Positions 818-64,000 of a stretch of DNA of 64,000 nt are shown here, piece after piece. The DNA is from Tragulus kanchil (Eukaryota > Chordata > Mammalia > Artiodactyla > Tragulidae). The notes beneath the pieces were generated by a model, which made no database searches, was not told the origin of the DNA, and saw only the letters and a list, made by a program, of their open reading frames with translations. Where the stretch lies: contig JAIOJX010000024.1 in assembly GCA_022376925.1 (NCBI GenBank), positions 168,237,608 to 168,301,607 on the forward strand. The letters run 5' to 3'. The stretch's first letter is position 1, and every line of letters begins with the position of its first letter. The translations under genes and the position numbers were made by a program.

Positions 818-1712
818 ATGAAACGACAGAGAAACACTGCACAAATGAAGGACCAAGCTAGAGAAACACCGCTTCAAATGACAGAGGAGGAGATAGACAA
901 ATTATCTGAAAGAGAATTCAGAAAAGCGATATTAATGAGGATGCAAAACACTGAAAACAGAATATTAGAGGAAATTAGTGCATTGAGAAGAGACATGCAA
1001 GAAATGAAAAATAAGCAAATAGAGACAACCAACTCAATTGCTGAACTCAAAAACACTATAGAAGGTCTCAACAGTAGAGTATCAGAGGCTGAAGAACGGA
1101 TAAGTGAGCTGGAAGACAGAATGGTGGAAATAAGTGCTGAAGAACAGAATAAAGCTGAAAGAATCAAAAGAACTGAGGAATAGCATCAGAGACCTATGGG
1201 ACAATATCAAACGCACCAACATTAGAATTATAGGAGTTCAACAGGAAGAAGAGGGGAAGAAAGGCTACCAAAAAATTCTTGAAGAGGTTATAGTGGAAAA
1301 ATTCCACAGCATGGGAAAGGAAATAGTCAACCAAGTCCAAGAAGCACAAAGAGTTCCATACAGGATATACCCCAGAAGAAACACACCAAGGCACATTCTA
1401 ATCAAACGAACGCAGACTAAATATAAAGACAGATTACTAAAAGCAGCTAGGAGCAAACAACAAATAACATATAAAGGAAACCCCATACGTCTAACTGCAG
1501 ATCTTTCAACAGAAACCCTGCAGGCCAAAAGAGAATGGCAAGACACATTTAAATGGCTAAAAGAGAATAACCTCCAACCAAGAATTCTCTACCCAGCAAG
1601 AATCTCATTCAGAATTGATGGCGAAGTCAAAAGCTTCACAGACAGACAAAAACTAAAAGAATTCTGTACCACAAAACCAGCCCTACAACAAGTGTTAAAG
1701 GGCCTGATATAG
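818..1712 (+). pseudogene. L1 ORF1 (ORF1p RNA-binding chaperone), frameshifted
   Basis: ORF1p is the trimeric nucleic-acid chaperone that coats L1 RNA in the ribonucleoprotein particle. The first frame (818-1183, 121 residues) is an acidic, heptad-rich coiled coil typical of the N-terminal half. The second frame continues to a stop at 1712 and carries the RRM and C-terminal domain, including the L1 family string RDLWDNIKRTNIRI. The two frames join near 1180, where a small insertion puts a TAG stop in the first frame. The same frameshift occurs in the duplicate at 2146-2780, so it belongs to the element and is not a random read error. The start at 818 fits the usual position after the 5'UTR. 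Defective; the family call is certain. Confidence 0.9.
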
Positions 1713-3205
1713 ACAATAAATACAAGAGTAGGAGAAGTCCTACAAATCAAACCCCAAACTTCTAAGAAGATGACAATAGGAACATTTGTATCAATAATTA
1801 CTTTGAATGTAAATGGATTAAATGCTCCAACCAAACGACACAAGCTGGCTGAATGGATTCAGAAACATGACCCATATATATGCGGTTTACAAGAGACCCA
1901 CTTCAGACCTAGAGACACTCATAGACTGAAAGTGAGAGGTTGGAAAAAGATACTCCGTGCAAAAGGAAATCAAAAGAAAGCTGGAGTAGCAATCCTCATA
2001 TCAGACAAAATAGATTTTAAAGTAAAGAAGATTCTAAGAGACAAGGCAGGCCACTACATCATGATTAAGGGATCGATCCAAGAGGAAGACGTAACAGTCA
2101 TGAATATCTACGCACCCAACACAGGGGCCCCCAAAAGACAGTAAGAGTATCAGAGGCTGAAGAACGGATAAGTGAGCTGGAAGACAGAATGGTGGAAATA
2201 AGTGCTGAAGAACAGAATAAAGCTGAAAGAATCAAAAGAACTGAGGAATAGCATCAGAGACCTATGGGACAATATCAAACGCACCAACATTAGAATTATA
2301 GGAGTTCAACAGGAAGAAGAGGGGAAGAAAGGCTACCAAAAAATTCTTGAAGAGGTTATAGTGGAAAAATTCCACAGCATGGGAAAGGAAATAGTCAACC
2401 AAGTCCAAGAAGCACAAAGAGTTCCATACAGGATATACCCCAGAAGAAACACACCAAGGCACATTCTAATCAAACGAACGCAGACTAAATATAAAGACAG
2501 ATTACTAAAAGCAGCTAGGAGCAAACAACAAATAACATATAAAGGAAACCCCATACGTCTAACTGCAGATCTTTCAACAGAAACCCTGCAGGCCAAAAGA
2601 GAATGGCAAGACACATTTAAATGGCTAAAAGAGAATAACCTCCAACCAAGAATTCTCTACCCAGCAAGAATCTCATTCAGAATTGATGGCGAAGTCAAAA
2701 GCTTCACAGACAGACAAAAACTAAAAGAATTCTGTACCACAAAACCAGCCCTACAACAAGTGTTAAAGGGCCTGATATAGACAATAAATACAAGAGTAGG
2801 AGAAGTCCTACAAATCAAACCCCAAACTTCTAAGAAGATGACAATAGGAACATTTGTATCAATAATTACTTTGAATGTAAATGGATTAAATGCTCCAACC
2901 AAACGACACAAGCTGGCTGAATGGATTCAGAAACATGACCCATATATATGCGGTTTACAAGAGACCCACTTCAGACCTAGAGACACTCATAGACTGAAAG
3001 TGAGAGGTTGGAAAAAGATACTCCGTGCAAAAGGAAATCAAAAGAAAGCTGGAGTAGCAATCCTCATATCAGACAAAATAGATTTTAAAGTAAAGAAGAT
3101 TCTAAGAGACAAGGCAGGCCACTACATCATGATTAAGGGATCGATCCAAGAGGAAGACGTAACAGTCATGAATATCTACGCACCCAACACAGGGGCACCT
3201 CAATA
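1071..3205 (+). repeat. direct duplication 1 (offset 1068), likely assembly overlap
   Basis: Bases 1071-2137 repeat at 2138-3205, near identical. The junction lies in mid-ORF2 endonuclease and re-enters mid-ORF1, with microhomology around GACAGTA. It yields a second ORF1 C-terminal half (2202-2780) and a truncated ORF2 start (1770-2144). No L1 mechanism makes this arrangement. Confidence 0.9.
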
Positions 3206-6200
3206 CATAAGACAGATACTTTCAGACATAAAAGAAGACCTTGACACTAACACAATAATAGTAGGAGACTTTAACACTCCTCTCACACCAATGGATAGAT
3301 CATCCAAACAGAAAATTAATAAAGAAACACAAGCCTTAAATGCCACACTAGAAAAGATGGCCCTCATCGATATATTTAGGACATTCCATCCAAAAGCAGA
3401 AGAATACACTTTCTTCTCAAGTGCTCACGGAACATTCTCCAGGATAGACCACATCTTGGGCCACAAATCTAACCTCAGTCAATTCAAGAAAACTGAAATT
3501 CTATCAACCATCTTCTCGGACCACAATGCAATGAGACTAGAGATCAACTACAGGAAAAAAACCGCTAAAAATACAAACACATGGCGATTAAACAACACAT
3601 ACCTAAAAAACAAACTGATTACTGAGGAAATCAAAGGAGAAATTAAACAATTCCTAGAAGAAAATGACAATGAACATACAACCATGCAAAACCTATGGGA
3701 TACCGCAAAAGAGGGAAATTTATCGCAGTACAATCCCACCTCAAGAAACTAGGAAAATATGAAGCAGATGACCTAACCCTCCACTTAAAACTATTGGAAA
3801 AAGAAGAACAAAAACATCCCAAGCCAGCAGAAGACGAGAAATTATAAAGACTAGAGCAGAAATAAATGAGAAAGAAATGAAAGAAACTATAGTACAGCAA
3901 AATAAAACAAAAAGCTGGTCCTTTGAAAAGGTAAACAAAATTGACAAGCCCCTGGCCAGACTCATCAGAAAAAGAGAGAGAAGAACTGGATCACCAAAAT
4001 CAAAAATGAAAAAGGAGAGATTACAACAGATAATGCAGATATCCAAAGGATTATAAGAGGCTATTATGAACAACTATATAGCAACAAACTGGACAACCTG
4101 GAAGAAATTTCTTGGAGAAGATTAATCTCCCAAGACTGAGCCAGGAAGAAACAGAAACTTTGAACAACCCAATCACAAGCTCAGAAATTGAATTTGTGAT
4201 TAAAAATCTACCCCAAAATAAAAGCCCAGGGCCAGATGGCTTCAAAGCTGAATTCTACCAAACATTTAAAGAAGAGCTAATGCCTGTCCTTCTAAAACTC
4301 TTCCAAAAAATTATTGCACAGGAAGGAAAACTTCCAAACACATTCTACGAGGCCACCATCACCCTGATACCAAAACCAGGCAGAGACAACACAAAAAAAG
4401 AAAATTATAGGCCAATTTCACTGATGAGCTTAGATGCCAAGATCCTCAACAAAATCCTAGCAAACAGAATTCAACGACACATCAAAAAACTCATACATCA
4501 CGATAAAGTCAGGTTCATCCCAGGCATGCAAGGATTCTTCAATATCCGCAAATCAGTCAATGTGATACACCATATCAACAAACTGAGAGACAAAAATCAC
4601 ATGATCATCTCAGTAGATGCAGAAAAAGCCTTCGACAAAGTACAACATCCATTTATGTTCAAAACTCTTCAGAAAATGGGCATAGAAGGAACCTATCTCA
4701 ACATAATAAAAGCCATCTATGAGAAGCCCACAGCAAACATCATCCTCAACGGTGAAAAACTGAAAGCATTCCAAGATCAGGAACAAGACAGGGGTGTCCA
4801 CTTTCACCACTATTATTCAACATAGTCCTGGAAGTTCTAGCAACAGCAATAAGAGAAGAGAAAGAAATAAAAGGAATCCAGGGGCTTGCCTGGTGGTCCA
4901 GTGGGTAAGGACACCGCCTTGCAGTGCAAAGGGTGCCGGTTCGATCCCTGGCCTGGGAGGATCCTGCGTGCCACGGAGCGGCTGGACTGATGTGTCCAAT
5001 TGCCGAGCCGGAGCTCTGGAGCGCATGCGCCCAGAGCTGGCGCTCTGCAACGACAGATGCCACCGCGATGGGAAGCCCACAGGAGCCAAAGACGGATGAA
5101 AACAGAGAAATGAAAGATCAATCGAAGTGGCCCACCCATGCCCCTCCCTCCCCACCCCCCTCAAAATAAATAAATAAATAAATGTTTTTAAAAAAAGGAA
5201 TCCAGATTGGAAAGGAAGAAGTCAAGCTCTCTCTTTATGCAGATGACATGATATTATACATAGAAAATCCCAAAGACACCATTACAAAGCTACTAGAGCT
5301 AATCAACAAATTCAGCAAAGTCGTGGGATACAAAATCAATACACAGAAATCACTGGCATTCCTATATACAAATAATGAAAAATCAGAAAACGAAATCGAA
5401 GAGGCAATCCCATTCACCACTGCAACCAAAAGAATCTAATATCTAGGAATAAACCTACCCAAAGAAACAAAAGAATTGTACACAGAAAATACAAGACACT
5501 CATGAAAGAAATTAAAGAAGACAAACAGATGGAGAGATATTCCATGTTCCTGGGTCAGAAGAATCAATATTGTGAAAATGACCATACTACCAAATATCAT
5601 CTACAGATTCAATGCAATCCCTATCCAACTACCAATGATATTTTTCACAGAACTAGACCAAAGAATAACACAGTTCATATGGAAACACAGAAGACCTCGA
5701 ATAGCCAAAGCAATCCTTAGAAAGAAAAATGGAGCTGGAGGAATCAGCCTCCCTAACTTCAGACTATACTACAAAGCAACAGTCATCAGTATGGTACTGG
5801 CACAAAAACAGAAATATCGACCAATGGAACAAGATCACGAACCCAGAGATAAACCCACACACCTATGGGTACCTTATTTTTTGACAAAGGAGGCAAATCT
5901 ATAAAATGGGACAAAGACAGCCTCTTCAACAAGTGGTGCTGGGAAAATTGGACAGCTACATGCAAAAAAATGAAGTTGGAACATTCCCTGACACCATACA
6001 CAAAGATCAACTCAAAATGGATTAAAGGCCTAAATGTAAGACCAGAAACCATCAAACTCTTAGAGGAGAATATAGGCAAAACCCTCAAGGGCATCAATCA
6101 AAGCAAGATCTTCTCTGACCCACCTACTAGAATAGCGGAACTCAAAAGAAAAATGAACATGTGGGACCTAATGAAACTGAAAAGCTTTTGTACAGCAAAA

Positions 6201-7362: not shown

Positions 7363-7907
7363 AGCAAAAATTCTGCCCACCAATTAGGCATGCTGAAAAA
7401 GTTAACAGAAAATACTACAGCCATAAAATAGAAGACAACCAATCGAGTCTTTTCTCACATGGGTTATTTTGACAACCAGACTACTTTTCTCCAAGAGAAG
7501 TGTTTTGTGTTTTGCTATTTCAGTAGCCCGCATTAATTCTAAGACAGTACTAGACAAATCATGACCTTTTATTAAGTCCTTATTTACTCTTCAAAGACTT
7601 TAAACATGGTTGAACCAGAATAAATAAAGTGCATTTCAATGAAAGCAATAAATGCTTACTGGGTACATTACTGTGTCACTCTACTGGTAGGTCAGCCTTA
7701 CAGTGACTTCACCATACAACGACTGCCTCAAAGAGGCCTCAAACTGTGAGAGAAACTGCTACCACAATACCTGAGAGAACCTTCAGCCCTCACCCAAAGT
7801 TTAGGGATGCCTAATACAGCAGCTAGAGGCCACTTAAAGTAAAAGCAAACTGCCCAATACAACTCCAGAACACCCAAGGGCAGCTGTTTTTAAACACAGT
7901 TCAAAGG
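7363..7907. other. unique sequence, no gene seen
   Basis: AT-rich single-copy-looking DNA between the L1 and a Bov-tA SINE. Stray AATAAA words occur, but there is no supported exon. Confidence 0.5.
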
Positions 7908-8112
7908 GCTTCCCTGGTGGCACTAGCGGTAAAGAACCCGCCTGCCCAAGCAGGAGACACAAGAGACGTGCGTTCAGTCCCTGGGTCAGGAAGACCCCCT
8001 GGCGGAGGGCACGGCAACCCACGCCAGGGCTCAAAGCTGGAGAATCCCATGGACAGAGGAGCCTGATGGGCTACAGGCCATAGGGCTACGAATAGTTGGA
8101 CACAACTAACTG
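7908..8112 (+). mobile_element. Bov-tA SINE
   Basis: Diagnostic head (GGGCTTCCCTGGTGGC), then the Bov body (GGAGAATCCCATGGACAGAG), and an end resembling AGTTGGACACAACTAACTGA. The duplicated copy is at 8990-9192. Confidence 0.93.
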
Positions 8113-8989
8113 ACGTGACCTAACTCATCTCCTCCAAGAGCCCTTTCCTGGCCGTTCCAGGGCAAAATGGTCTGCCTCCCGTGTGATCTCAGCACCACTG
8201 AACACTGACCACACAGCTGGGGTCTCAGTTCCACTCCCAGAGCGGTCCCCTGTGCACTGGGTTTTGTCCCCTGTCCCACCTGATCATCCTAAGGCTTGCC
8301 GGGACAAATTCAGGAGCAAAGAAGGTGTACGGACCAGTGCCACGAGGAACAACGTGTGAGAGGAACTGTGGGCACTCACAAGCACCCCACAAGCCGGACC
8401 ACAGGCCATCTCTATGCTGTTCATGAATAAGTAAAGGTGTTATTTTCGGATTTTGGAAAGAAATTAGGTAAAATTTAAATGAAGAGACTCAAACCAGAGT
8501 AAGACTGAATGTAAAGAGATAAACATCAGGTCTGGACTGTGAGGGTTATTTTGACAACCAGACTACTTTTCTCCAAGAGAAGTGTTTTGTGTTTTGCTAT
8601 TTCAGTAGCCGCATTAATTCTAAGACAGTACTAGACAAATCATGACCTTTTATTAAGTCCTTATTTACTCTTCAAAGACTTTAAACATGGTTGAACCAGA
8701 ATAAATAAAGTGCATTTCAATGAAAGCAATAAATGCTTACTGGGTACATTACTGTGTCACTCTACTGGTAGGTCAGCCTTACAGTGACTTCACCATACAA
8801 CGACTGCCTCAAAGAGGCCTCAAACTGTGAGAGAAACTGCTACCACAATACCTGAGAGAACCTTCAGCCCTCACCCAAAGTTTAGGGATGCCTAATACAG
8901 CAGCTAGAGGCCACTTAAAGTAAAAGCAAACTGCCCAATACAACTCCAGAACACCCAAGGGCAGCTGTTTTTAAACACAGTTCAAAGGG

Positions 8990-9192
8990 CTTCCCTGGTG
9001 GCACTAGCGGTAAAGAACCCGCCTGCCCAAGCAGGAGACACAAGAGACGTGCGTTCAGTCCCTGGGTCAGGAAGACCCCTGGCGGAGGGCACGGCAACCC
9101 ACGCCAGGGCTCAAAGCTGGAGAATCCCATGGACAGAGGAGCCTGATGGGCTACAGGCCATAGGGCTACGAATAGTTGGACACAACTAACTG
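8990..9192 (+). mobile_element. Bov-tA SINE, second copy of the 7908 element
   Basis: Same insertion seen again through duplication 2. It should not be counted as an independent insertion. Confidence 0.9.
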
Positions 9193-10110
9193 ACGTGACC
9201 TAACTCATCTCCTCCAAGAGCCCTTTCCTGGCCGTTCCAGGGCAAAATGGTCTGCCTCCCGTGTGATCTCAGCACCACTGAACACTGACCACACAGCTGG
9301 GGTCTCAGTTCCACTCCCAGAGCGGTCCCCTGTGCACTGGGTTTTGTCCCCTGTCCCACCTGATCATCCTAAGGCTTGCCGGGACAAATTCAGGAGCAAA
9401 GAAGGTGTACGGACCAGTGCCACGAGGAACAACGTGTGAGAGGAACTGTGGGCACTCACAAGCACCCCACAAGCCGGACCACAGGCCATCTCTATGCTGT
9501 TCATGAATAAGTAAAGGTGTTATTTTCGGATTTTGGAAAGAAATTAGGTAAAATTTAAATGAAGAGACTCAAACCAGAGTAAGACTGAATGTAAAGAGAT
9601 AAACATCAGGTCTGGACTGTGAGGTGGGCTCCGGGTCTCATTTCCTTGAAAGCAATAAAGCGAGCAGAGCCGCAGTCTGTCGCGTCCAGAAAGCCCTGAT
9701 CCGAAGCTCTACGTCGAGGCTCCCTCTCTGCGTCAAAATGGCTGAGGTCACCCAGGCAACACGGGGCGGTACTCTCTCACTGACACGACTTTTAGGGGCA
9801 CACCTCCCGACTGTGACTGTAGAGAACAGCAGGAGGGCCGCTGTCACTCGGAGAAGGGGCCATGACACTACACGGCAGCGTGTCCTTGGGAGAGACTCCT
9901 CTCATTCAAAAGCTGGTTTTACCTGTATCTGTTTTCCCAGCCGAGGTGTCCAGTCCAAGCCAATTTCACTTCGGCATTCCTTGACAAGCCAGACTCCTTA
10001 AGAGGTGCAAACCATCGCTACATTTGTTCATATCCTACACAAAACTGAGTGCAAACCTAAGCATGCAGCAGATACTACACAAAGGCTGTTTGATGCCGAG
10101 CTGATAGATG
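9193..10110. other. unique sequence, no gene seen
   Basis: 9623-9900 is richer in CpG than its surroundings and has a 125-residue open frame (9624-10001) with no recognisable family. I see no splice or domain support for an exon. 8113-8542 is the first copy of 9193-9622. Confidence 0.4.
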
Positions 10111-11881: not shown

Positions 11882-11955
11882 AAACAGTTAATTCAAAAAA
11901 AAAAAAAATCAAAACGAGGAACAAAGTTTAATTCTGGCCTACTGACTTCAGTAAC

Positions 11956-12265
11956 TTTATTTATTTATTTATTTGAGGGGTGGGGTGGGGAGGGAGGGGA
12001 GCAGGCGGGCCACGTCTATTGGTCTTTCATTTCTCTATTTTCATCCGTCTTTGTTCTTTGGCTCCTGTGGGCCTCCCATCGCGATGGCCTCTGTTGTTGC
12101 AGAGCACCGGCTCTGGGCGCATGCGCTCCAGAGCTCCGGCTCGGTGATTGGACACATGGGTCCAGCCGCTCCGCGGCACGTGGGATCTTCCCAGGCCAGG
12201 GATGGAACCGGCGCCCCCTGCACTGCAAGGCGGTGTCCTCACCCACTAGACCACCAGGGAAGCCC
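11956..12265 (-). mobile_element. CHR-like tRNA-Glu SINE
   Basis: On the minus strand it has the tRNA-Glu-like head, the CHR-like body and an ATAAATAAATAAA tail. Target duplications CTTCAGTAAYTTTA lie on both sides (11946 and 12266). The duplicate copy is at 13059-13368. Confidence 0.93.
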
Positions 12266-12269
12266 CTTC

Positions 12270-12986
12270 AGTAATTTTAGAAACCAGATTAAAGATTACG
12301 AATTCTAGCCAACCATGAAAAACGGTCATTTTTAGATGTATGATAAAAAAGTATCTATCACTAGAGACTGTAAGGATATTTCACGTCCAGTAAACAAGTA
12401 CAAAGGCTTCTGTCTGTATTTCGGTTTTCAAGATACTTCCCCTATCATCAATTATAACCAAATCTTTTGGTTCTGTTCTGTCAATTTTCAGAACACGATA
12501 TTTTGTTTCTGCATGACTGCTCCCAACTAGAAAGTATCTCTATAAAGAAAAAGAAAAGTCATTAGTCTTTTAGAGCAGTTTGCCTTATACACATTTTATA
12601 ATCACTTTAGTCTTTCTTCATTAGATACATTACATCAGGTTACTGTTTTAAAAGAAATATTTGTTTCTGTTAAGTACGACTAACTGGAAGATTTTAAAAA
12701 GGCCGATTCTAAAAAGGTCAACTTAAAACTTACATATTCATCATGGCGTCGTGATAAGCAGTAGGAGATTTACAATGTACCCAGTAACCAGGTCAGACAA
12801 ATTTAATTCTGTTACACAGAGATTAGCCTAACTGATTGGAGACTGATGTTTAAACTTTACCAGGAAACAGCAGCTCTGGTTAGAATTAGAAAGCTCAACA
12901 TATAATTAGGAATACTTAGACAATTATAACTATTAAAATTTTGATATTTTATGAAATAAACCTTTATAAATTTTCCATTGAAGACT
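12270..12986. other. unique AT-rich sequence, no gene seen
   Basis: No element recognised. It is repeated at 13373-14092 as part of duplication 3. Confidence 0.5.
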
Positions 12987-13058
12987 AAACAGTTAATTCA
13001 AAAAAAAAAAATCAAAACGAGGAACAAAGTTTAATTCTGGCCTACTGACTTCAGTAAC

Positions 13059-13368
13059 TTTATTTATTTATTTATTTGAGGGGTGGGGTGGGGAGGGAGG
13101 GGAGCAGGCGGGCCACGTCTATTGGTCTTTCATTTCTCTATTTTCATCCGTCTTTGTTCTTTGGCTCCTGTGGGCCTCCCATCGCGATGGCCTCTGTTGT
13201 TGCAGAGCACCGGCTCTGGGCGCATGCGCTCCAGAGCTCCGGCTCGGTGATTGGACACATGGGTCCAGCCGCTCCGCGGCACGTGGGATCTTCCCAGGCC
13301 AGGGATGGAACCGGCGCCCCCTGCACTGCAAGGCGGTGTCCTCACCCACTAGACCACCAGGGAAGCCC
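13059..13368 (-). mobile_element. CHR-like SINE, second copy of the 11956 element
   Basis: Identical insertion and target site repeated by duplication 3. Confidence 0.9.
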
Positions 13369-19012: not shown

Positions 19013-19024
19013 CAGTATCCTTTA

Positions 19025-43118: not shown

Positions 43119-43190
43119 CAACACGAGATTTTACAACAACTTTCTCCATTAGAAAATAAATATTAATCTGATTTAAAAGACCCCGATAAG

Positions 43191-44604: not shown

Positions 44605-44621
44605 GAAAGAAAGAAAGAGGG

Positions 44622-51268: not shown

Positions 51269-51269
51269 G

Positions 51270-51430
51270 AAGTGACAAAACACAAGTTTTGGGGTGTTGC
51301 TGCTAGCATATTCCAGTCTAATCCAACCGCAAACCACGATGTCCACTGAGGGCTGGCGGCCAGAGTGCCCAGTTTGGCTTGGGAAATGCTGCCGCCTTGG
51401 GGCCGTTTCCCACAACAGCAACTTTAAAAC
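51270..51430. repeat. array segment B3 with CTCF-like core
   Basis: AACCACGATGTCCACTGAGG leads to the core GCTGCCGCCTTGGGGCC at 51389-51405 and CAACAGCAACTTTAAAAC. The duplicate is at 52390-52550. Confidence 0.68.
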
Positions 51431-51557
51431 GGCTCCCCCGTTCCTTCCGTCCGCTTTGAGACCAGGGGCTGCAGCCCACCTCCCCCTCTGTCCCCGCGGA
51501 TGCTCCAGGGAGGAACGCCGCCGTGGGCGGCCATGCCCGTCTCCACCGGCAGGGGGA

Positions 51558-51832
51558 GCCGGCGCGCGCCCTGGGCCCCGCGGCGCCGGGGCGGAGGCTG
51601 GAGGGCGGCCGGGCCGGGAGCTCCCGCTGCCCCGCTGCCGGCGGGGGTCCGCTCCAAGTTCGGCCTCGTATGGTGACCCCCGGGAGCGGGGCCCCGGGTG
51701 GCCTCAGGAGGGATGAGGCGGCCCGGGTCGGAAACGGAGCAGCTCACAACTCCCGTGCTGATCAGGAGTGGGAGCCAGCCCGTGCACAGCCGCTGGACTC
51801 CAACCTGGGCGGCACAGTGAGACCTTGTCTCT
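51558..51832 (+). pseudogene. RN7SL-like: 7SL (SRP) RNA pseudogene, GC-enriched
   Basis: 7SL RNA is the scaffold of the signal recognition particle. Landmarks appear in the correct order: GCCGG start, GGAGGCTGGAGG, GTCCGCTCCAAGTTCGGC, TATGGTGACCCCCGGGAGC, then GGTCGGAAACGGAGCAG (the helix 8 tetraloop and SRP54-binding loop), ACTCCCGTGCTGATCAGGAG, and CCAACCTGGGC...GAGACCTTGTCTCT at the 3' end. Length is about 275 versus about 300 for the human RNA. The Alu-domain half is strongly shifted to G/C with short gaps; the S-domain half is far better kept. A short A-rich tail follows. Candidate target duplication AACGGCT near 51429 and 51858 would include about 125 bp of GC-rich sequence upstream of the RNA start. 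Most likely a retropseudogene; an old functional paralogue is unlikely. Confidence 0.8.
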
Positions 51833-51859
51833 TAAAAGAAAAAAACACTAGAAGAGAAC

Positions 51860-51955
51860 GGCTGCCCGCGCTACCATTCTTCCCTGGAGAATTCTATGGA
51901 CAGAGGAGCCTGGGGCGCTACATCCCATGGGGTGGCAAAGAGTCCGACACCTGAA
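51860..51955 (+). mobile_element. Bov-A 3' fragment
   Basis: CTACCATTCTTCCCTGGAGA through GGTGGCAAAGAGTCCGACAC. It sits where B1 and B2 carry Bov-A2. Repeated at about 52979-53074. Confidence 0.85.
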
Positions 51956-52677
51956 CGATAAACACGTTCGTCCCTTAAAGGGACACATCACGAGGATGGC
52001 TGGGCTGTAAGATGCCATCATCAAAACTCCTTCTAAAATTTTTTTCACACGAAGCACTGAATTTCATCAAGACAATATCAAGAGGTAGACACTACTCACT
52101 ATGTTTTTTGGGTTTTTTTTAAGTACATGAAATGATGCACAATGTCATAAATTATTAGAGACATGGAAATCAAAATTACACTAAGGGCTCACTTTGCAGC
52201 AGTCAAATGTCCATCGTCAAAATTTCCCCAAAATCAAAAACCCCAATAGGAATACCAATTAAGGGCTACTCAACATCCTGTAGTAAGCCCTATGGAAAAT
52301 AATTTGAAAATCAATAGATACTCATACATCCCAACACTGTATATCATGTCAGTCGAAAAAAAACCTAAACACTGAATCAAAAAAGCAAGAAGTGACAAAA
52401 CACAAGTTTTGGGGTGTTGCTGCTAGCATATTCCAGTCTAATCCAACCGCAAACCACGATGTCCACTGAGGGCTGGCGGCCAGAGTGCCCAGTTTGGCTT
52501 GGGAAATGCTGCCGCCTTGGGGCCGTTTCCCACAACAGCAACTTTAAAACGGCTCCCCCGTTCCTTCCGTCCGCTTTGAGACCAGGGGCTGCAGCCCACC
52601 TCCCCCTCTGTCCCCGCGGATGCTCCAGGGAGGAACGCCGCCGTGGGCGGCCATGCCCGTCTCCACCGGCAGGGGGA

Positions 52678-52952
52678 GCCGGCGCGCGCCCTGGGCCCCG
52701 CGGCGCCGGGGCGGAGGCTGGAGGGCGGCCGGGCCGGGAGCTCCCGCTGCCCCGCTGCCGGCGGGGGTCCGCTCCAAGTTCGGCCTCGTATGGTGCCCCC
52801 CGGGAGCGGGGCCCCGGGTGGCCTCAGGAGGGATGAGGCGGCCCGGGTCGGAAACGGAGCAGCTCACAACTCCCGTGCTGATCAGGAGTGGGAGCCAGCC
52901 CGTGCACAGCCGCTGGACTCCAACCTGGGCGGCACAGTGAGACCTTGTCTCT
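52678..52952 (+). pseudogene. RN7SL-like: 7SL RNA pseudogene, second copy
   Basis: Same locus seen through duplication 12. It has GGTGCCCCC where copy one keeps the GGTGACC expected for 7SL, so copy one is probably the better read. Confidence 0.78.
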
Positions 52953-53259
52953 TAAAAGAAAAAACACTAGAAGAGAACGGCTGCCCGCGCTACCATTCTT
53001 CCCTGGAGAATTCTATGGACAGAGGAGCCTGGGGCGCTACATCCCATGGGGTGGCAAAGAGTCCGACACCTGAACGATAAACACGTTCGTCCCTTAAAGG
53101 GACACATCACGAGGATGGCTGGGCTGTAAGATGCCATCATCAAAACTCCTTCTAAAATTTTTTTCACACGAAGCACTGAATTTCATCAAGACAATATCAA
53201 GAGGTAGACACTACTCACTATGTTTTTTGGGTTTTTTTTAAGTACATGAAATGATGCAC

Positions 53260-53875
53260 AATGTCATAAATTATTAGAGACATGGAAATCAAAATTACAC
53301 TAAGGGCTCACTTTGCAGCAGTCAAATGTCCATCGTCAAAATTTCCCCCAACAATAAATGCCAGAGGAGGGGTGGAGAAAAGGGAACCCTCTCAAATGCC
53401 TGTGGCATACAAACTAAACAGCCGCAAGAGAACAATTGTGAACTATTTTTAAAAGGTAAAAACAGGGCTAAAAAAAAAAAAAAAAACAGGGCTACCATCC
53501 ACTTCAGAGTCCCACCCTAACAGGATATTTGAAAATGACCAGATTTCTAGAAGAAACAGGCACCAAAAGTGCACAACAGCAGCCCATACAATACCACCAG
53601 CAGGAAGCAACCGAAATGTCCAAGGACGATTAAAAGCAAAGGAAGAAAGGGCGGAGGTCCGGACGGCACAGGACCCCACCATGAGGGAGAGTGATCAGTA
53701 CACCTGTGCGACTGCCGAGTCCCTCTGCTGTATGCCTGCAACTATCACAAATTGGTTATCAGCTATACCTCAATACAAAATGTTTGGGGATTAAAAAAAT
53801 AAAAACATAACAAATTTTTAAAATAAAGAAAATAATAAATAAATAAAATTAGTTGTTCAGTTTGAATGCTTAAAA
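53260..53875 (+). repeat. L1 3'-end and 3'UTR-derived array sequence
   Basis: GACATGGAAATCAAAATTAC, ACAATAAATGCCAGAGGAGG, CTGCAACTATCACAAATTGG and AAATAAATAAAATTAG tail. Includes an A run at 53471-53485. Confidence 0.72.
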
Positions 53876-53888: not shown

Positions 53889-54118
53889 GGGCTTCCTGGG
53901 TGGTCCAGAGGGTGGAGAGTCCGCCTTGCAGTGCAAGGGGCACCGGTTCGATCCCTGGCCCGGGAGGATCCCACGTGCCGCGGAGCGGCTGGACCGCTGT
54001 GTCCCCTTACGAGGCAGCGCACGCGCCCAGAGCCAGTGCTCTGTGGCGAGGGGGCCACTGCGATGCGAGGCCCACACAGGCCGAAGAATAAAGATGGATG
54101 AAAATAAATACATAAAAA
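53889..54118 (+). mobile_element. CHR-like tRNA-Glu SINE
   Basis: Older copy: GGGCTTCCTGGGTGGTCCAG head and B-box GGTTCGATCCCTGGCC. The middle is shortened and the tail replaced by AATAAATACATAAAA. Confidence 0.9.
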
Positions 54119-54239
54119 ATCAATAAAAAGAGCCCCCCCCCTCAAAGAATCAGACAGTTCTACTATAGCAACATGCATGGACCTACGTGTCATCAGACTG
54201 AGGGGTGCCAACTACAAAAAAAACAAAAAGACAAATACC

Positions 54240-54550
54240 ATTTATCAGTGGAATCTGTACACTGATGCCCATGAACCACCTGGCAACAGAGACACAGATT
54301 CACAAAATTAGAAAACAAAATCATTGTTACCAGAAGGGAAAGGTGTGGGGAGGAGTTAGCAGGTGGGATTAACGAATCCACAACAATACATATGAAACAG
54401 CTCATCAACAAGAGTCTGTTGTTGAACAAGGGCTATCCACACAACATTTTGTAGGAACCTAAATGATAAAAGAACCCGAAATAAATAGATACATATTAAA
54501 ACTGAAAAGCATTATCTACACCGCCAACCAACATAGCATTTTTGTCTTAT
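54240..54550 (+). repeat. L1 3'UTR-derived array sequence
   Basis: ACAGATTCACAAAATTAGAA, CATTGTTACCAGAAGGGAAA, CACACAACATTTTGTAGGAA. Repeated at about 55303-55614. Confidence 0.7.
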
Positions 54551-54574
54551 ATTAACACCAAAACCATTTTGCAT

Positions 54575-54740
54575 TGGAGGATAGCCAGTTAACAATGTTG
54601 TGATGTTTTCAGGTGAACAGTGAAAAGAGTCAGTCGTACATATACATGTTTCAGTTCTCCCTCAAAACCCTCTCCCTCCCAGGCTGATGCATAGCATTGA
54701 GCAGAGTACAATAGGTTTTTGTTGATGATCCATTTTAAAC
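54575..54740 (-). mobile_element. L1 3'-end fragment, antisense
   Basis: CAGTTAACAATGTTGTGATG, AGTCGTACATATACATGTTT and AGCAGAGTACAATAGG match the artiodactyl L1 3'UTR in reverse. Repeated at about 55638-55803. Confidence 0.75.
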
Positions 54741-54819
54741 ATAGCAGAACCAACACAACGTTTTAAAACAACGTTAAAAAAATAAAAACTAAACTAATAG
54801 AAAGGGAAGTTAACGTAAT

Positions 54820-55080
54820 GAGACACGCACTCAGGGGTGTTTGTGCTGGCACCTTTCACACTAATTTACAGCCCAGAAACACGCCTCTACTAAGGCTCTG
54901 CCTTCTGTGGTAACCAGAGTGGGGCATGGGGAAATTCTGCCACCTTGTGGCCGTTTTCCAAAACAGCAACTTCAAAATCAATGCTTATAGGCACGCAATG
55001 GTCACAAGGACGACAGGGCTATAAATTACACCTTCTGTCACTAAATGTCCCGAAGAGGGCAATCAAGAAAAAAAAAAAAA
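54820..55080. repeat. array segment A5 with strong CTCF-like core
   Basis: GGGTGTTTGTGCTGGCACC through TGTCACTAAATGTCCCGAAG. The core is at 54936-54953. It is repeated at 55884-56145, and from its middle at 57070-57245. Confidence 0.72.
54936..54953 (-). promoter_or_regulatory. candidate CTCF-binding motif (array A5)
   Basis: Minus strand reads CGGCCACAAGGTGGCAGA, the best consensus match in the array. The same site is seen at 56000-56017 and 57105-57122 through duplications. Confidence 0.55.
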
Positions 55081-55964
55081 AAATTCAACTCCTGGCCGAT
55101 TTTCGAGGAGCTAATTTAAATAGTTCAATTTTATTTCCACTGATAAGAAACAGAAGCTGAAAATAAAATGATAAAAAAATCATAAAAATCAATAAAAGGC
55201 CCCCTCAAAGAATCAGACAGTTCTACTATAGCAACATGCATGGACCTACGTGTCATCAGACTGAGGGGTGCCAACTACAAAAAAAACAAAAAGACAAATA
55301 CCATTTATCAGTGGAATCTGTACACTGATGCCCATGAACCACCTGGCAACAGAGACACAGATTCACAAAATTAGAAAACAAAATCATTGTTACCAAAAGG
55401 GGAAAGGTGTGGGGAGGAGTTAGCAGGTGGGATTAACGAATCCACAACAATACATATGAAACAGCTCATCAACAAGAGTCTGTTGTTGAACAAGGGCTAT
55501 CCACACAACATTTTGTAGGAACCTAAATGATAAAAGAACCCGAAATAAATAGATACATATTAAAACTGAAAAGCATTATCTACACCGCCAACCAACATAG
55601 CATTTTTGTCTTATATTAACACCAAAACCATTTTGCATTGGAGGATAGCCAGTTAACAATGTTGTGATGTTTTCAGGTGAACAGTGAAAAGAGTCAGTCG
55701 TACATATACATGTTTCAGTTCTCCCTCAAAACCCTCTCCCTCCCAGGCTGATGCATAGCATTGAGCAGAGTACAATAGGTTTTTGTTGATGATCCATTTT
55801 AAACATAGCAGAACCAACACAACGTTTTAAAACAACGTTAAAAAAATAAAAACTAAACTAATAGAAAGGGAAGTTAACGTAATGAGACACGCACTCAGGG
55901 GTGTTTGTGCTGGCACCTTTCACACTAATTTACAGCCCAGAAACACGCCTCTACTAAGGCTCTG

Positions 55965-58177
55965 CCTTCTGTGGTAACCAGAGTGGGGCATGGGGAAATT
56001 CTGCCACCTTGTGGCCGTTTTCCAAAACAGCAACTTCAAAATCAATGCTTATAGGCACGCAATGGTCACAAGGACGACAGGGCTATAAATTACACCTTCT
56101 GTCACTAAATGTCCCGAAGAGGGCAATCAAGAAAAAAAAAAAAAAAATTCAACTCCTGGCCGATTTTCAAGGAGCTAATTTCAATAGTTCAATTTTATTT
56201 CCACTGATAAGAAACAGAAAACAGCACATGAAACGGTGCACAAATTCACCACGTTTGGGAGGCATGCAAATCAAAACTACAAGGAGGGCTCACATCGCCA
56301 AAGTCTGAAGAGGCACCATCAATAGATCTTCAAAGAAGCTATCGTGGAGAGGGCCTGGAGAGAAGGAAAGCCTCCTAAGCTACAAGTGGGATGAAACTGA
56401 CAGCACTCCCTTCAGAGAACAGTAGGCAGGTGCTTTAAAGGGGAACCTAGAGCTACCTATGTTCCAGCAGTCTCAGGCCTACGAGAATAGCTGGGGGAAA
56501 ACCAGAATTCAAAGAGAAACATGCTTCCAAACCTCACTTCAGCACCAGTTACAACAGCAAAGACCTGGAAGCCAGCAAAGTTTCCACTGAGAGATGAATG
56601 CCGTAAAGAGGAAGCAGTTGTCCATAATGTAACAAAACTCAGCCATGAAATAGACTGAAATAATATCAGTGCAGCAACCTACATGAACCTATTTGTATGC
56701 ATACAGAGACAGGATACTTAGGAAAAAAATAAAATAAAAAGAATTCGTGAGACTCGAGCTTTTGGGTGTTTGCGCTGCATATTCCACTGCACATGAGTGT
56801 AAAGAGAAAAACACTGTTTTGAGTTGTCCCTAGGCATTTTCAGTATTCTTCCCTGCTCACACCAACAGTGTGGACATTTAGATAACAAGTAAGCTTAGGC
56901 ATCTTGCCATAAATTCTTGGCTTTCTTTTCCTAGAGCCCCTTTAAAACAGCCACTTAGAGAGTAGCCCTCAAATAGTTAGTGACACCACCCCAACCACCT
57001 TAAACAGACTAGGGCGCCTGCTGCCTGCTTCTATCTCTTGTTTGCATGTGACCTGAGATGGAGGACGGCCCTTCTGTGGTAACCAGAGTGGGGCATGGGG
57101 AAATTCTGCCACCTTGTGGCCGTTTTCCAAAACAGCAACTTCAAAATCAATGCTTATAGGCACGCAATGGTCACAAGGACGACAGGGCTATAAATTACAC
57201 CTTCTGTCACTAAATGTCCCGAAGAGGGCAATCAAGAAAAAAAAAAAATTCAACTCCTGGCCGATTTTCAAGGAGCTAATTTCAATAGTTCAATTTTATT
57301 TCCACTGATAAGAAACAGAAAACAGCACATGAAACGGTGCACAAATTCACCACGTTTGGGAGGCATGCAAATCAAAACTACAAGGAGGGCTCACATCGCC
57401 AAAGTCTGAAGAGGCACCATCAATAGATCTTCAAAGAAGCTATCGTGGAGAGGGCCTGGAGAGAAGGAAAGCCTCCTAAGCTACAAGTGGGATGAAACTG
57501 ACAGCACTCCCTTCAGAGAACAGTAGGCAGGTGCTTTAAAGGGGAACCTAGAGCTACCTATGTTCCAGCAGTCTCAGGCCTACGAGAATAGCTGGGGGAA
57601 AACCAGAATTCAAAGAGAAACATGCTTCCAAACCTCACTTCAGCACCAGTTACAACAGCAAAGACCTGGAAGCCAGCAAAGTTTCCACTGAGAGATGAAT
57701 GCCGTAAAGAGGAAGCAGTTGTCCATAATGTAACAAAACTCAGCCATGAAATAGACTGAAATAATATCAGTGCAGCAACCTACATGAACCTATTTGTATG
57801 CATACAGAGACAGGATACTTAGGAAAAAAATAAAATAAAAAGAATTCGTGAGACTCGAGCTTTTGGGTGTTTGCGCTGCATATTCCACTGCACATGAGTG
57901 TAAAGAGAAAAACACTGTTTTGAGTTGTCCCTAGGCATTTTTCAGTATTCTTCCCTGCTCACACCAACAGTGTGGACATTTAGATAACAAGTAAGCTTAG
58001 GCATCTTGCCATAAATTCTTGGCTTTCTTTTCCTAGAGCCCCTTTAAAACAGCCACTTAGAGAGTAGCCCTCAAAAAGTTAGTGACTCCACCCCAACCAC
58101 CTTAAACAGACTAGGGCGCCTGCTGCCCTGCTTCTATCTCTTGTTTGCATGTGACCTGAGATGGAGGACGGCCCTTC
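55965..58177 (+). repeat. direct duplication 14 (offset 1105), likely assembly overlap
   Basis: 55965-57069 repeats at 57070-58177. The last 100 bases of the first copy carry errors relative to later copies (CAAATAGTTAGTGACACC versus CAAAAAGTTAGTGACTCC; GCTGCCTGC versus GCTGCCCTGC). Confidence 0.93.
56220..56750 (+). repeat. last L1 3'-end-derived array unit
   Basis: GGCATGCAAATCAAAACTAC, CATCAATAGATCTTCAAAGA, TACAACAGCAAAGACCTGGA, GAAATAGACTGAAATAATAT: ORF2-tail-like. The array fades near 56760 (57850 in the second copy). Confidence 0.7.
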
Positions 58178-58300
58178 CCCTGGTTCAGCCACCTGCCCTG
58201 GCCTGCACCTCTGAGACACGTGAGGAATGGGCCACAGTTCAAATGTAAGTGACTATGTTTAACTGGTAAACAAGCTGTGAAAGATGTGCGCAATGGATGA
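57850..58300. other. unique sequence after the array, no gene seen
   Basis: Includes an OCT-like ATTTGCAT-type word (TTTGCATG near 58144). No repeat family or exon recognised. Confidence 0.4.
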
Positions 58301-58760
58301 GCACTCAGCAGTAAGAAGAAACAAACTACTAATACCCACAGCATGGACGAACATCAAAGCAAAAGACACTGGACTCAGGACAGTATGTGCTGTACAATTC
58401 TACTCATTGAAAATTCTTGAATAGGCATATTTAATATCACATTTAAAAAATAGAGTATTCGTTGGTAGGAAGGGAAACGCGGCAGTTGGCTGGAGAGCGA
58501 CACGAGGGAACTTTCTGTGGCGACACAGGGGTGTGGTTATACGTGTATGCTTCTGTCCAAACTCTACAGCTGAGACCTGTGCATTTCAATTCATGTAATT
58601 TTTTTTTAAAAAAGTAAAATAGTATGTGGTGGGTGGGAAGTGGAACAAGTTGTAGATAAGAGAGGATGACAGAACGTGGATGATTTTGGAGCTGGGTGAC
58701 GACTAGATGGGAATTTACCATTCTGTTTATTATTCTACTTTGTAATTTGCTTTAAGTTTC
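58300..58760 (+). mobile_element. old mammalian L1 (L1M-type) 3' end
   Basis: ACTAATACCCACAGCATGGA, GACACTGGACTCAGGACAGT, CACGAGGGAACTTTCTGTGG and GGTGTGGTTATACGTGTATG follow the order of L1M 3' ends. Repeated at about 59420-59880; its tail again at 60769. Confidence 0.75.
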
Positions 58761-59678
58761 TATAATAAAAAGGGAAAGAAACAAAACAGACATTATCCAT
58801 AAACCCTATATTTATCTGATTCACTCGAAACAATGACTCTGTCAAATTGCTGTAAAAAGGTCTAATCGTTCACCCTCAGTTTCTACATGTAATTTGTGGC
58901 CCTCAGAATCTGATTCCCCCCTCAATAGAAAAGAAATACTTAGGAAAAAATAAAATAAAAAGAATTCGTGAGACTCGAGCTTTTGGGTGTTTGCGCTGCA
59001 TATTCCACTGCACATGAGTGTAAAGAGAAAAACACTGTTTTGAGTTGTCCCTAGGCATTTTCAGTATTCTTCCCTGCTCACACCAACAGTGTGGACATTT
59101 AGATAACAAGTAAGCTTAGGCATCTTGCCATAAATTCTTGGCTTTCTTTTCCTAGAGCCCCTTTAAAACAGCCACTTAGAGAGTAGCCCTCAAAAAGTTA
59201 GTGACTCCACCCCAACCACCTTAAACAGACTAGGGCGCCTGCTGCCCTGCTTCTATCTCTTGTTTGCATGTGACCTGAGATGGAGGACGGCCCTTCCCCT
59301 GGTTCAGCCACCTGCCCTGGCCTGCACCTCTGAGACACGTGAGGAATGGGCCACAGTTCAAATGTAAGTGACTATGTTTAACTGGTAAACAAGCTGTGAA
59401 AGATGTGCGCAATGGATGAGCACTCAGCAGTAAGAAGAAACAAACTACTAATACCCACAGCATGGACGAACATCAAAGCAAAAGACACTGGACTCAGGAC
59501 AGTATGTGCTGTACAATTCTACTCATTGAAAATTCTTGAATAGGCATATTTAATATCACATTTAAAAAATAGAGTATTCGTTGGTAGGAAGGGAAACGCG
59601 GCAGTTGGCTGGAGAGCGACACGAGGGAACTTTCTGTGGCGACACAGGGGTGTGGTTATACGTGTATGCTTCTGTCCA

Positions 59679-61828
59679 AACTCTACAGCTGAGACCTGTG
59701 CATTTCAATTCATGTAATTTTTTTTTAAAAAAGTAAAATAGTATGTGGTGGGTGGGAAGTGGAACAAGTTGTAGATAAGAGAGGATGACAGAACGTGGAT
59801 GATTTTGGAGCTGGGTGACGACTAGATGGGAATTTACCATTCTGTTTATTATTCTACTTTGTAATTTGCTTTAAGTTTCTATAATAAAAAGGGAAAGAAA
59901 CAAAACAGACATTATCCATAAACCCTATATTTATCTGATTCACTCGAAACAATGACTCTGTCAAATTGCTGTAAAAAGGTCTAATCGTTCACCCTCAGTT
60001 TCTACATGTAATTTGTGGCCCTCCAGCCACACACTAACTATGCCGGGCGCCAATTACCAGCCCCCACTATTCAATAGCACCATCATAACCTTTCTTTGCC
60101 TCATTTTTCCCCTTCACCAAATAATAATAGTAGTAGCAGCAATATTTGCCCCGAGTTTTATGAGGATTAAATAATAAAATATACAGAGTGTTTCAACCCG
60201 TGCAAGAGCATTAGTTATTATTCTCATGAATACAACCTGCTACCATTTCTTTCTAATTCCTTGGAGCTATTGAGTCGCCAGTAACTAAATGGCAGCTAAG
60301 GGGTGCATAGTTTCCTCTTCTCAGAACAGGAGCCACTGAAGTTTCTGAGCAGAGAAGCTCTATAATATAAATTGTGCTTTAGAAAGAACATTCACATTTC
60401 AGTCCGTCCTCATGCATGCTGGGCTTAGTGGGCTGAAATGTATGTGTTCTAAATAGAGTAGGTATGTTTCTAACTAGGGATACTGAACAGCATTCCTACA
60501 GAGAGCAGGAGGTTTTGTTTCAAAATGATACTTCTGTGTGGCTCTCTTCAGTGGACAACTGAAGATATTTGCAAACACACTATATTAGATAAGTTCATCT
60601 TCTGATCCGGATCTAATCAAATGAAGCAGTCACCAAAATTAACTTAGGGTCAACACTGTTTCTACATAAATGATGACCTGCAGCAAACAAGCTCTTAGGA
60701 GCCTGTTCTAACCAAGATACTGTTAGGATAACCACCTTCTTAAACCTTCGATAGAGCCTCAAGTTTCAACTCTACAGCTGAGACCTGTGCATTTCAATTC
60801 ATGTAATTTTTTAAAAAGTAAAATAGTATGTGGTGGGTGGGAAGTGGAACAAGTTGTAGATAAGAGAGGATGACAGAACGTGGATGATTTTGGAGCTGGG
60901 TGACGACTAGATGGGAATTTACCATTCTGTTTATTATTCTACTTTGTAATTTGCTTTAAGTTTCTATAATAAAAGGAAAGAAACAAAACAGACATTATCC
61001 ATAAACCCTATATTTATCTGATTCACTCGAAACAATGACTCTGTCAAATTGCTGTAAAAAGGTCTAATCGTTCACCCTCAGTTTCTACATGTAATTTGTG
61101 GCCCTCCAGCCACACACTAACTATGCCGGGCGCCAATTACCAGCCCCCACTATTCAATAGCACCATCATAACCTTTCTTTGCCTCATTTTTCCCCTTCAC
61201 CAAATAATAATAGTAGTAGCAGCAATATTTGCCCCGAGTTTTATGAGGATTAAATAATAAAATATACAGAGTGTTTCAACCCGTGCAAGAGCATTAGTTA
61301 TTATTCTCATGAATACAACCTGCTACCATTTCTTTCTAATTCCTTGGAGCTATTGAGTCGCCAGTAACTAAATGGCAGCTAAGGGGTGCATAGTTTCCTC
61401 TTCTCAGAACAGGAGCCACTGAAGTTTCTGAGCAGAGAAGCTCTATAATATAAATTGTGCTTTAGAAAGAACATTCACATTTCAGTCCGTCCTCATGCAT
61501 GCTGGGCTTAGTGGGCTGAAATGTATGTGTTCTAAATAGAGTAGGTATGTTTCTAACTAGGGATACTGAACAGCATTCCTACAGAGAGCAGGAGGTTTTG
61601 TTTCAAAATGATACTTCTGTGTGGCTCTCTTCAGTGGACAACTGAAGATATTTGCAAACACACTATATTAGATAAGTTCATCTTCTGATCCGGATCTAAT
61701 CAAATGAAGCAGTCACCAAAATTAACTTAGGGTCAACACTGTTTCTACATAAATGATGACCTGCAGCAAACAAGCTCTTAGGAGCCTGTTCTAACCAAGA
61801 AACTGTTAGGATAAGTACCTTCTTAAAC
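59679..61828 (+). repeat. direct duplication 16 (offset 1089 to about 1085), likely assembly overlap
   Basis: 59679-60745 repeats at 60768-61828. Homopolymer changes (T9 versus T6, A and G runs) lie near the second copy start. Filler of about 22 bases lies at 60746-60767. Confidence 0.92.
60090..60225 (+). mobile_element. MIR SINE
   Basis: TTTGCCTCATTTTTCCCC, then GTTTTATGAGGATTAAATAA, then CAAGAGCATTAGTTATTATT, in MIR order. Repeated at about 61177-61310. Confidence 0.75.
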
Positions 61829-62310
61829 TCTTCTAAGATAGTCCACGTTCCACTTACGGTGCCTCATAGGGCACTATAGCATAAGAAAGAGTATTATGCA
61901 AGTTTCTAGCACATGCAGTCTAGCTCTCATAAAGTGTAATTCAAACACAGACCCTAATATCACTATTACTCCAATTTATAAAAGCTCTGTTTTCTTTTCC
62001 AGCCATACAAACAACAAAGTACGTATTTTTACAAACACCATTCCCTAAATTTTAGGGAGCTAGTAACCTAAGAACGGAGTCTGTTTATTCTACGAGTAAC
62101 TAGGCTCATTGGCGAGTTGACGAAATAAAAGAAAACGTGTTGGAAAAGTCAAGTGAAAAGCAATATGTTACCCAAACAAATCAACTGTCTTTAAACAAAA
62201 CACGTTTTTCTTTCCTTTGCAATCAAGAGAAGTATGTCAGCAATAAAAGCGCACGTAATTAACATCAATCTCATCTCTTATGCCATGGTCAAAAATAGTC
62301 TCTGCACTCC
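60226..62310. other. unique AT-rich sequence, no gene seen
   Basis: Partly repeated by duplication 16. No element or exon recognised in 61829-62310. Confidence 0.45.
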
Positions 62311-62650: not shown

Positions 62651-62799
62651 CTAATCAGTAACCACCAGTAAACCATTTTGCATTCCCTTTTACAAACTCT
62701 TAAGATTTCCTGAGAGTTTGGAAGAATTTCCGCATAAAGCCTCAAGAACGTTCTCTGAGCTATCACAGACACCTGCTGCCAGTGTGCTCCGACCGTGGC

Positions 62800-63470
62800 T
62801 CCCAAAGTGGAAATGTCTGCATGCAAAAGCACTGGTGCCCAGGGCGCGGTAACGGGGCGAAGGCCGCCCCCGCAGGCCCCCCACCCCCCGACTGGGACAC
62901 ATTCCCCTCCGCGGGGATTAGGGAGCTGGGAAAGTAAGGGGGAGCCGGGGGAACGACGCTTCTCACCCGCACCCACTCGGCCGCCGTCCTCCCTCCCGCG
63001 CCCCGCTGCACAGGGGACTTACAGCTCCGGTCTCGACAGGGCCAGCTTCTGAAGCGAGCTGATAACGGGGGGCAGCAGCCGCGGGCACGGCTCGAGCCAG
63101 TGGGGCCCCCTCTGCAGGACACCAGGCCGCGGCCCAGACTGCGGCAGCCTCTGAACTGCCCCAGAAGATTCGAAGAGAAGACGCGTTGGACGCCGCACGC
63201 CAGGTTCAGCCGGGAAAAACGCTGCCCGGACGCTAAATACAGGAGACTAGCTAATAAGGTTCAGGTGTTTCCGGACCCCACGCCCCGCCTCCAGGCAAGC
63301 CCCGCCCAGGCACGCGGGGGCGGGACTGCGACGTTACCAAGGAGAGGCGGTGCACTTCCCCGGAGCCTGCGTGCTGCCCGCGAGGAAGCAGAGGGCGCCA
63401 TCTTTGGTGCGGGCAAGAGAAAAAGTGGGCGGGGAACGGGGCTGCGGGTTTCGTTGAATCTCTTGTTGGT
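62800..63470. promoter_or_regulatory. CpG island / candidate promoter
   Basis: Dense CpG and G+C in an otherwise AT-rich window. GC boxes near 63316 (GGGGGCGGGAC) and 63428 (GGGCGGGG), a YY1-like GCGCCATCTTT at 63395-63405, and a plus-strand CTCF-like AGCAGAGGGCGCC at about 63388-63400. There is no TATA box. Open frames across it are GC-driven. Direction is unknown; the splice donor at 63022 favours a minus-strand transcript. Confidence 0.65.
63017..63024 (-). promoter_or_regulatory. candidate 5' splice site of a minus-strand first exon
   Basis: On the minus strand the sequence GGAGCTGTAAGTCCCC has GTAAGT, a perfect intron-side donor, leaving the CpG island leftward. The exon side is weak (GCT). 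Single-site evidence only. Confidence 0.35.
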
Positions 63471-63694
63471 GTAGTTACTTCTCTTTGGCTAATCTGCGAC
63501 TGAATTGCTTCTTTTGAAGCCGGTCTCCGAGTTGCAGATAGATTCATTCCCTAGTTGGTCTGGTTTTTTCCCTACCTACTTCTGCTTCTGCCTTTATGTT
63601 CCTGAAAAGCTACTGTGTTCTTTCATGGAGTATCTGTTTTTCCCTCCAGTCTCTTTGTTGTCTATTTTTACCCTTAGGAGAATCAACAAAATCC
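63471..63694. other. T-rich unique sequence, no gene seen
   Basis: Short overlapping open frames (63505-63723, 63596-63787), no family recognised. Confidence 0.4.
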
Positions 63695-63815
63695 TTATTG
63701 TCGGGGATTATGTATACCTGTAAACAAGAAAACTCTGTAAAACGTATAACAATAACCGCTGTACACCAAGCTAATGCAATGTTGTAAAACAAATATACCC
63801 CAATTAAAAAAATTT
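63695..63815 (+). mobile_element. L1 3' end fragment
   Basis: GTAAACAAGAAAACTCTGTA, CGCTGTACACCAAGCTAATG, CAATGTTGTAAAACAAATAT and an A-rich end match the artiodactyl L1 3' terminus. Confidence 0.75.
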
Positions 63816-64000
63816 TTAAATCCTTGTTGTCCAGGGGGCCCTCAAGTTAGAAATTTCCCCAAAATGTTTTTTTAAAACAAAACCTTGCATTCCTTTTACA
63901 AACTCTTAAGATTTCCTGAGAGTTTGGAAGAATTTCCATAAAGCCTCAAGAACGTTCTCTGAGCTATCACAGACACCTGCTGCCAGTGTGCTCCGACCGT

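Follow-up and report, generated by a model that had tools for sequence, protein, structure and literature searches.

Homotype false duplications are described by Rhie et al. 2021 (PMC8081667) as overlapping sequences at contig boundaries: in the excerpt cited here, a locus stands twice in tandem at the boundary of two pieces, the overlap derives from the assembly graph and the copies differ in consensus quality, with a scaffolding gap between them and a size that often matches a corrected read. Ko et al. 2022 (PMC9516828) measured false duplications in three species (zebra finch, hummingbird and platypus); the cited portion reports that falsely duplicated regions are more error-rich than correctly assembled ones, are mostly separated by gaps, and were recognised from read depth, k-mers and discordant read pairs. 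Because the same portion also contains pairs without a gap, joined by sequence that lacks read support, the gap is treated here as typical rather than defining. The stretch analysed in this work (hereafter the window) comprises 64,000 bases of Tragulus kanchil (assembly GCA_022376925.1, contig JAIOJX010000024.1, forward-strand positions 168,237,608 to 168,301,607). It carries seventeen direct repeat pairs of about 1.1 kb, which are almost certainly assembly overlaps left unmerged, by whatever software, and not real duplications.

By analogy, the case would work like a serial homotype false duplication. The copies are in direct, near-identical tandem without haplotype-level divergence (97.4–99.8% identity in 16 pairs), and at the boundaries they differ in consensus quality (31 vs 0.9 differences per kb, with a polarity directed towards the junction). 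Unlike the cases in the cited excerpt of PMC8081667, and unlike most pairs in the cited portion of PMC9516828, no gap lies between the copies (no N occurs in the 64,000 bases); the size is also near-constant, and 17 cases stand in series in one stretch. The unit of about 1.1 kb is to be set beside the homotype size of a corrected read, long reads usually being longer. Among the matches listed, no paper describing such a series was found, which is not a claim that the series is unreported.

Direct pairs and their tiling

A sequence-only reading of the window had listed seventeen direct pairs whose repeated length was always just over 1 kb, and had taken them for consecutive overlapping pieces joined without merging. 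The 64-kb window was compared with itself. Self-BLAST, in which only matches of more than 150 columns were considered, recovered 16 of the 17 listed pairs as complete pairs, and a lag scan with 14-mers (lags 150–8,000 bp; words occurring more than 30 times skipped; 60 or more common words per cluster) found all 17. Twelve of the 17 proposed starts fell within 3 bp of the BLAST starts, while four BLAST starts (24956, 29893, 42343 and 54074) lay 7–26 bp earlier than proposed. The alignments of the 16 complete pairs span 1,039–1,140 columns, and chance is excluded because the matches are kilobase-long and near-identical. The scan returned 24 clusters: the 17 pairs, three matches between members of a short interspersed nuclear element (SINE) family with a unit of about 310 bp, and four skip-one matches of the same tiling. 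Other self-matches were SINE or older repeat copies of lower identity.

The start-to-start lag of the 16 complete pairs ranges from 1,067 to 1,148 bp (mean 1,103, standard deviation (SD) 23, coefficient of variation 2%), in keeping with a length just over 1 kb. Pair 17 is truncated at the window end, with exact words from 62686 at a lag of 1,204–1,206 bp; at about 1,205 bp, its lag is clearly above the other 16. The spacing from one overlap, or node, to the next, with the overlaps discounted, runs from 743 to 5,739 bp (coefficient of variation 61%; 16 spacings). Pieces of 1.8–6.8 kb had been proposed; lengths of 1,814–6,833 bp were obtained for the 15 that have both ends measured. If each overlap were counted once, the false sequence would amount to 17,655 bp from the 16 pairs plus some 110–120 bp of the cut pair 17; subtracting both from 64,000 would leave about 46.2 kb of distinct sequence, close to the earlier figures of about 17.7 kb false and a true locus near 46 kb.

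All pairs are direct and read on the forward strand. Pair 1 (1071–3203) consists of copies 1071–2134 and 2138–3203 at a lag of 1067 bp, and pair 2 (7461–9624) of copies 7461–8544 and 8543–9624 (lag 1082). Pair 3 (11882–14092; copies 11882–12989 and 12987–14092; lag 1105) carries a SINE within it. The next three pairs have bases between their copies: 22 bp in pair 4 (18726–20930; copies 18726–19819 and 19842–20930; lag 1116), 20 bp in pair 5 (24956–27114; copies 24956–26028 and 26049–27114; lag 1093) and 16 bp in pair 6 (29893–32177; copies 29893–31024 and 31041–32177; lag 1148). The junction of pair 7 (33443–35657; copies 33443–34556 and 34554–35657; lag 1111) falls within a SINE, and the copies of pair 8 (37211–39421; copies 37211–38317 and 38315–39421; lag 1104) differ by four substitutions and no insertions or deletions (indels). 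In pair 9 (42343–44465; copies 42343–43378 and 43428–44465; lag 1085) the copies are 49 bp apart and copy 1 ends in a SINE; in pair 10 (44290–46560; copies 44290–45415 and 45433–46560; lag 1143) they are 17 bp apart and copy 2 starts in a SINE. Pair 11 occupies 47192–49376 (copies 47192–48287 and 48282–49376; lag 1090), and pair 12, with 8 bp between copies, 51127–53358 (copies 51127–52238 and 52247–53358; lag 1120). Pairs 13 (54074–56219; copies 54074–55155 and 55150–56219; lag 1076) and 14 (55965–58177; copies 55965–57074 and 57070–58177; lag 1105) are followed by two with bases between copies, pair 15 with 31 bp (57815–60023; copies 57815–58904 and 58936–60023; lag 1121) and pair 16 with 18 bp (59679–61833; copies 59679–60749 and 60768–61833; lag 1089). 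Pair 17 (62677–64000) is cut by the window end, its second copy beginning at about 63882 with exact words from 63892 (lag 1204–1206).

Along the window, a piece is followed by two successive writings of an overlap and then by the next piece, a pattern repeated throughout, and all 17 pairs are consecutive. Both self-BLAST and the lag scan revealed four stretches present in triplicate, once at the end of one piece, once in the interior of the next and once at the start of the piece after that. These stretches, all on the forward strand, lie at 43206–45615 (copies 43206–43379, from 44290, and 45433–45615), 54901–57320 (54901–55155, about 55965–56219, and 57070–57320), 56714–59296 (56714–57074, about 57815–58177, and 58936–59296) and 58560–61106 (58560–58904, about 59679–60023, and 60768–61106). 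They occur exactly where the node spacing is smaller than one overlap length (4 of the 16 spacings), with node-to-node overlaps of 223, 261, 360 and 378 bp and none larger among the 16. The triplicate pattern is a necessary outcome of overlapping pieces, and four independent real duplications would need an accident to nest identically.

Differences between copies and at the junctions

When the 16 complete pairs were aligned globally (17,533 columns), 96 differences emerged, 63 of them indels and 33 substitutions; homopolymer length changes accounted for 31 of the 63 indels. Pair 17, being incomplete, was excluded from every difference count. The density of differences falls steeply with distance from the edge of the unit, from 31.3 per kb within 50 bp to 10.6 at 50–100 bp, 4.4 at 100–200 bp, 2.5 at 200–300 bp and 0.9 beyond 300 bp. 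The indels are also polarised: among the 42 indels of the unit's left half, 39 shorten copy 2, which there begins a piece, and among the 21 of the right half, 17 shorten copy 1, which there ends one (Fisher P 5e-9 if the events are treated as independent, though they are clustered by pair). Counted by pair, 12 of the 15 pairs with indels follow the polarity, one opposes it and two are tied (sign P 0.003). The polarity persisted when 20 bp were trimmed (Fisher P 4e-7).

At the junctions themselves, 9 of 16 hold 3–49 bp that neither copy accounts for, and in the other 7 the copies have 2–6 bp in common. Some of the extra bases, most clearly in pair 9, resemble a degraded continuation of the left piece followed by a degraded run-in of the right piece, as judged by eye without a shuffle control.

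Since local alignments may overrun the true breakpoint, a reference outside the pairs was sought. The SINE family touches 3 of the 16 junctions, and ten of its copies served as the reference set (16 hits, less the five copies under test and one duplicate at 13075); columns beyond 275, which hold further pair 7 differences, were left unused. In pairs 7, 9 and 10, the junction-facing copy departs from the SINE majority in 22 of 28 differing columns. It does so in 6 of 6 columns in pair 7, where the start of copy 2 lacks bases present in other SINE copies, in 6 of 6 in pair 9, where the end of copy 1 lies within the SINE, and in 10 of 16 in pair 10.

A second outside reference was provided by long interspersed nuclear element 1 (LINE-1). 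In pair 1, copy 1 ends in the endonuclease part of LINE-1 open reading frame (ORF) 2 and copy 2 restarts in LINE-1 ORF1. From copy 2 onward, ORF2 is collinear with human ORF2p residues 6–292; in copy 1 the match to human ORF2p ends at residue 123, at the junction, after which the ORF1 domains recur. Copy 1 is truncated mid-LINE-1, which would equally be expected from a real duplication and so does not discriminate alone. Borders had previously been placed in LINE-1 ORFs, SINEs and BovB. The first placement agrees with pair 1 and the second with the three SINE junctions, while the BovB part was not confirmed by Pfam, a search of the putative BovB ORF pieces at 29442–29804 and 30025–30297 returning no families. 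The segments at 29442–30300 and 40909–41358 contain ORF pieces that we take to resemble a BovB reverse transcriptase and its 3' end, and the earlier BovB placement looks right to us.

Probable unmerged overlaps and alternative origins

The proposal that consecutive overlapping pieces were joined unmerged draws support from the constancy of the overlap, the tiling, the concentration of differences at the edges, the loss of bases at the tips and the extra bases at the junctions. The window would then consist of 18 successive consensus pieces, linked by 17 joins, from a long-read assembly, in which the last 1.1 kb or so of each piece equals the first 1.1 kb or so of the next. An align-and-collapse step would have failed or been skipped, so that each overlap was written twice, and the poor tips could reflect the small number of reads that reach the ends of a piece. 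From the tiling we infer where the piece boundaries lie; both copies of each pair would represent one locus. We think it more likely that the pieces are consensus units from a single long-read layout than that they are independent contigs, given the absence of Ns and given that the 17 pairs are all direct and in order. As judged from the letters of the window, we are highly confident that it does not represent one continuous genomic sequence, and there is very little doubt that the pairs of about 1.1 kb correspond to no real genomic feature.

If this is true, no biological duplication is present here and nearly 28% of the window is spurious. Were the entire assembly constructed likewise, errors would affect its size, its gene models and exon counts and its calls of tandem duplications, and any search for young duplications would be flooded. 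Constant lag, three-copy tiling and junction-facing base loss together form a signature that is computable from sequence alone, and would thus allow such assemblies to be screened without reads.

Several observations weigh against unmerged overlap. The lag of pair 17 (1,205 bp) lies 4 to 5 SD above the other lags. The indel polarity belongs to the tips, coming from roughly the outermost 60 bp: trimming 40 bp gave a Fisher P of 1e-4 (10 pairs for, 3 against; sign P 0.09), 60 bp a P of 0.014 (8 for, 3 against, 1 tie; sign P 0.23), 80 bp a P of 0.11 (7 for, 4 against) and 100 bp a P of 1.0 (again 7 for, 4 against). Extension of the BLAST alignments beyond the true breakpoint could have inflated the edge differences; over-extension would have no evident reason to act on one copy more than on the other. 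The SINE majority sides with the tip in 6 of the 16 columns of pair 10, and some majorities are as narrow as 5 of 9. Five of these six opposing columns are a single 5-base gap in copy 1, and a third reading of the locus, at the end of the preceding piece, also lacks those five bases, inside a longer gap; two of three readings thus disagree with the tip, the third reading being itself a tip. Lastly, and bearing on the choice of software alone, no 256-bp quantum was found in the node spacings (240–300 bp tested, P 0.81, n = 16).

Around this same tip, the piece start at 45433–45690 has some bases, together with the 5-base block, that occur in other SINE copies but in neither of the other two readings of the locus. 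This suggests that reads of another SINE entered the consensus at the start of pair 10 copy 2.

As to the software behind the unmerged overlaps, a constant overlap combined with a variable piece length would point to a graph whose units share one node of fixed length. By default, wtdbg and wtdbg2 use nodes of 1,024 bp with an overlap between neighbours of up to 256 bp. The observed overlap of about 1,103 bp and node overlaps of 223–378 bp would match these values with a fuzzy margin added. The lag of 1,103 ± 23 bp is about 80 bp above the 1,024-bp node, which only such a margin would explain; the node overlaps of 223–378 bp are likewise close to the 256-bp value without equalling it. The bins of wtdbg2, 256 bp in size, are set per read, so a blurred spacing quantum is expected, and the usual wtdbg2 pipeline collapses overlaps. 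Among the literature matches listed, no text giving wtdbg2 node sizes was found. An assembler of this type, with units overlapping by one node, seems to us about an even call.

A design in two steps, layout followed by a separate consensus program, is described in the cited part of PMC9915519, and the commands for wtdbg2 layout and wtpoa-cns consensus are printed in an excerpt of PMC9668749. The window would resemble the output of such a pair of programs in that contigs would be written as overlapping read sequences with the consensus made separately, and in the proximity of 1,024 and 256 bp to 1,103 and 223–378 bp. It is unlike that output in that the normal pipeline collapses overlaps and in that the spacings lack the quantum.

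The strongest competitor, a real contender that falls somewhat short of an even chance, shares the unmerged overlap itself and contests only the software: chunked polishing, gap filling or a custom cutting into stretches with overlaps of about 1 kb, followed by concatenation, could give the same artefact with no wtdbg-type graph. All signs of unmerged overlap fit it equally, other tools with chunk overlaps of about 1 kb exist, and node spacings free of a 256-bp quantum suit it. Fixed-size chunks, however, should yield constant pieces, and pieces of 1,814–6,833 bp were measured beside a near-constant overlap; the smallest node spacing, 743 bp, would suit a graph that limits node overlap.

Heterotype overlaps, in which successive pieces derive from different parental haplotypes and hence stayed unmerged, are improbable. 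The middle halves of the 16 units hold seven differences (3 substitutions, 4 indels) in about 8,750 columns, and these could be heterozygous sites, but some 0.8 per kb seems too few to prevent merging. Most differences lie near unit edges, and haplotype differences should spread evenly; haplotype overlap was rejected as the main cause on this ground.

Real tandem duplications of about 1.1 kb, made by an unknown process, would account for near-identical copies that stand side by side in direct orientation, no N separating them. They would not be expected to show a constant length, an ordered three-copy tiling, indel-heavy edge differences or base loss facing the junction. Real duplicates should differ mainly by evenly spread substitutions; here 63 indels stand against 33 substitutions, concentrated at the edges. 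We regard such duplications as extremely unlikely. It is likewise scarcely credible that a replication or repair process lays staggered tandem copies of about 1.1 kb regardless of content, with the tip errors produced by an assembler struggling with true tandems. SINE or LINE transposition was rejected, given that the SINE family is involved at 3 of 16 junctions and that pair 1 breaks mid-LINE-1, as was a satellite array, given that each unit pairs with its own neighbour together with four short tiled third copies.

Further features of the window

The segment 704–6410 is a long LINE-1 in which domains of both ORF1 and ORF2 occur; its ORF1 reading shifts frame near 1134–1183, within the duplicated unit. 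Between 14117 and 15075, the same SINE stands three times head to tail; the three copies have similar leads resembling AAAACCCACC, which looks like repeated insertion at one A-rich site. Judged by the SINE and the BovB/ART2-like pieces, the repeats look artiodactyl, probably ruminant. An Rfam search at gathering scores gave no matches. An exact scan of viral contigs for a SINE stretch also gave none, as did an exact scan of genome contigs for a stretch of the window, a scan that may leave out records from the genome to which the window belongs. A CpG-rich segment at 63001–63500 (G+C 0.64, CpG observed/expected 0.83) is possibly a promoter, and similar values occur at 42501–43000 and 51501–52000 and in their second copies.

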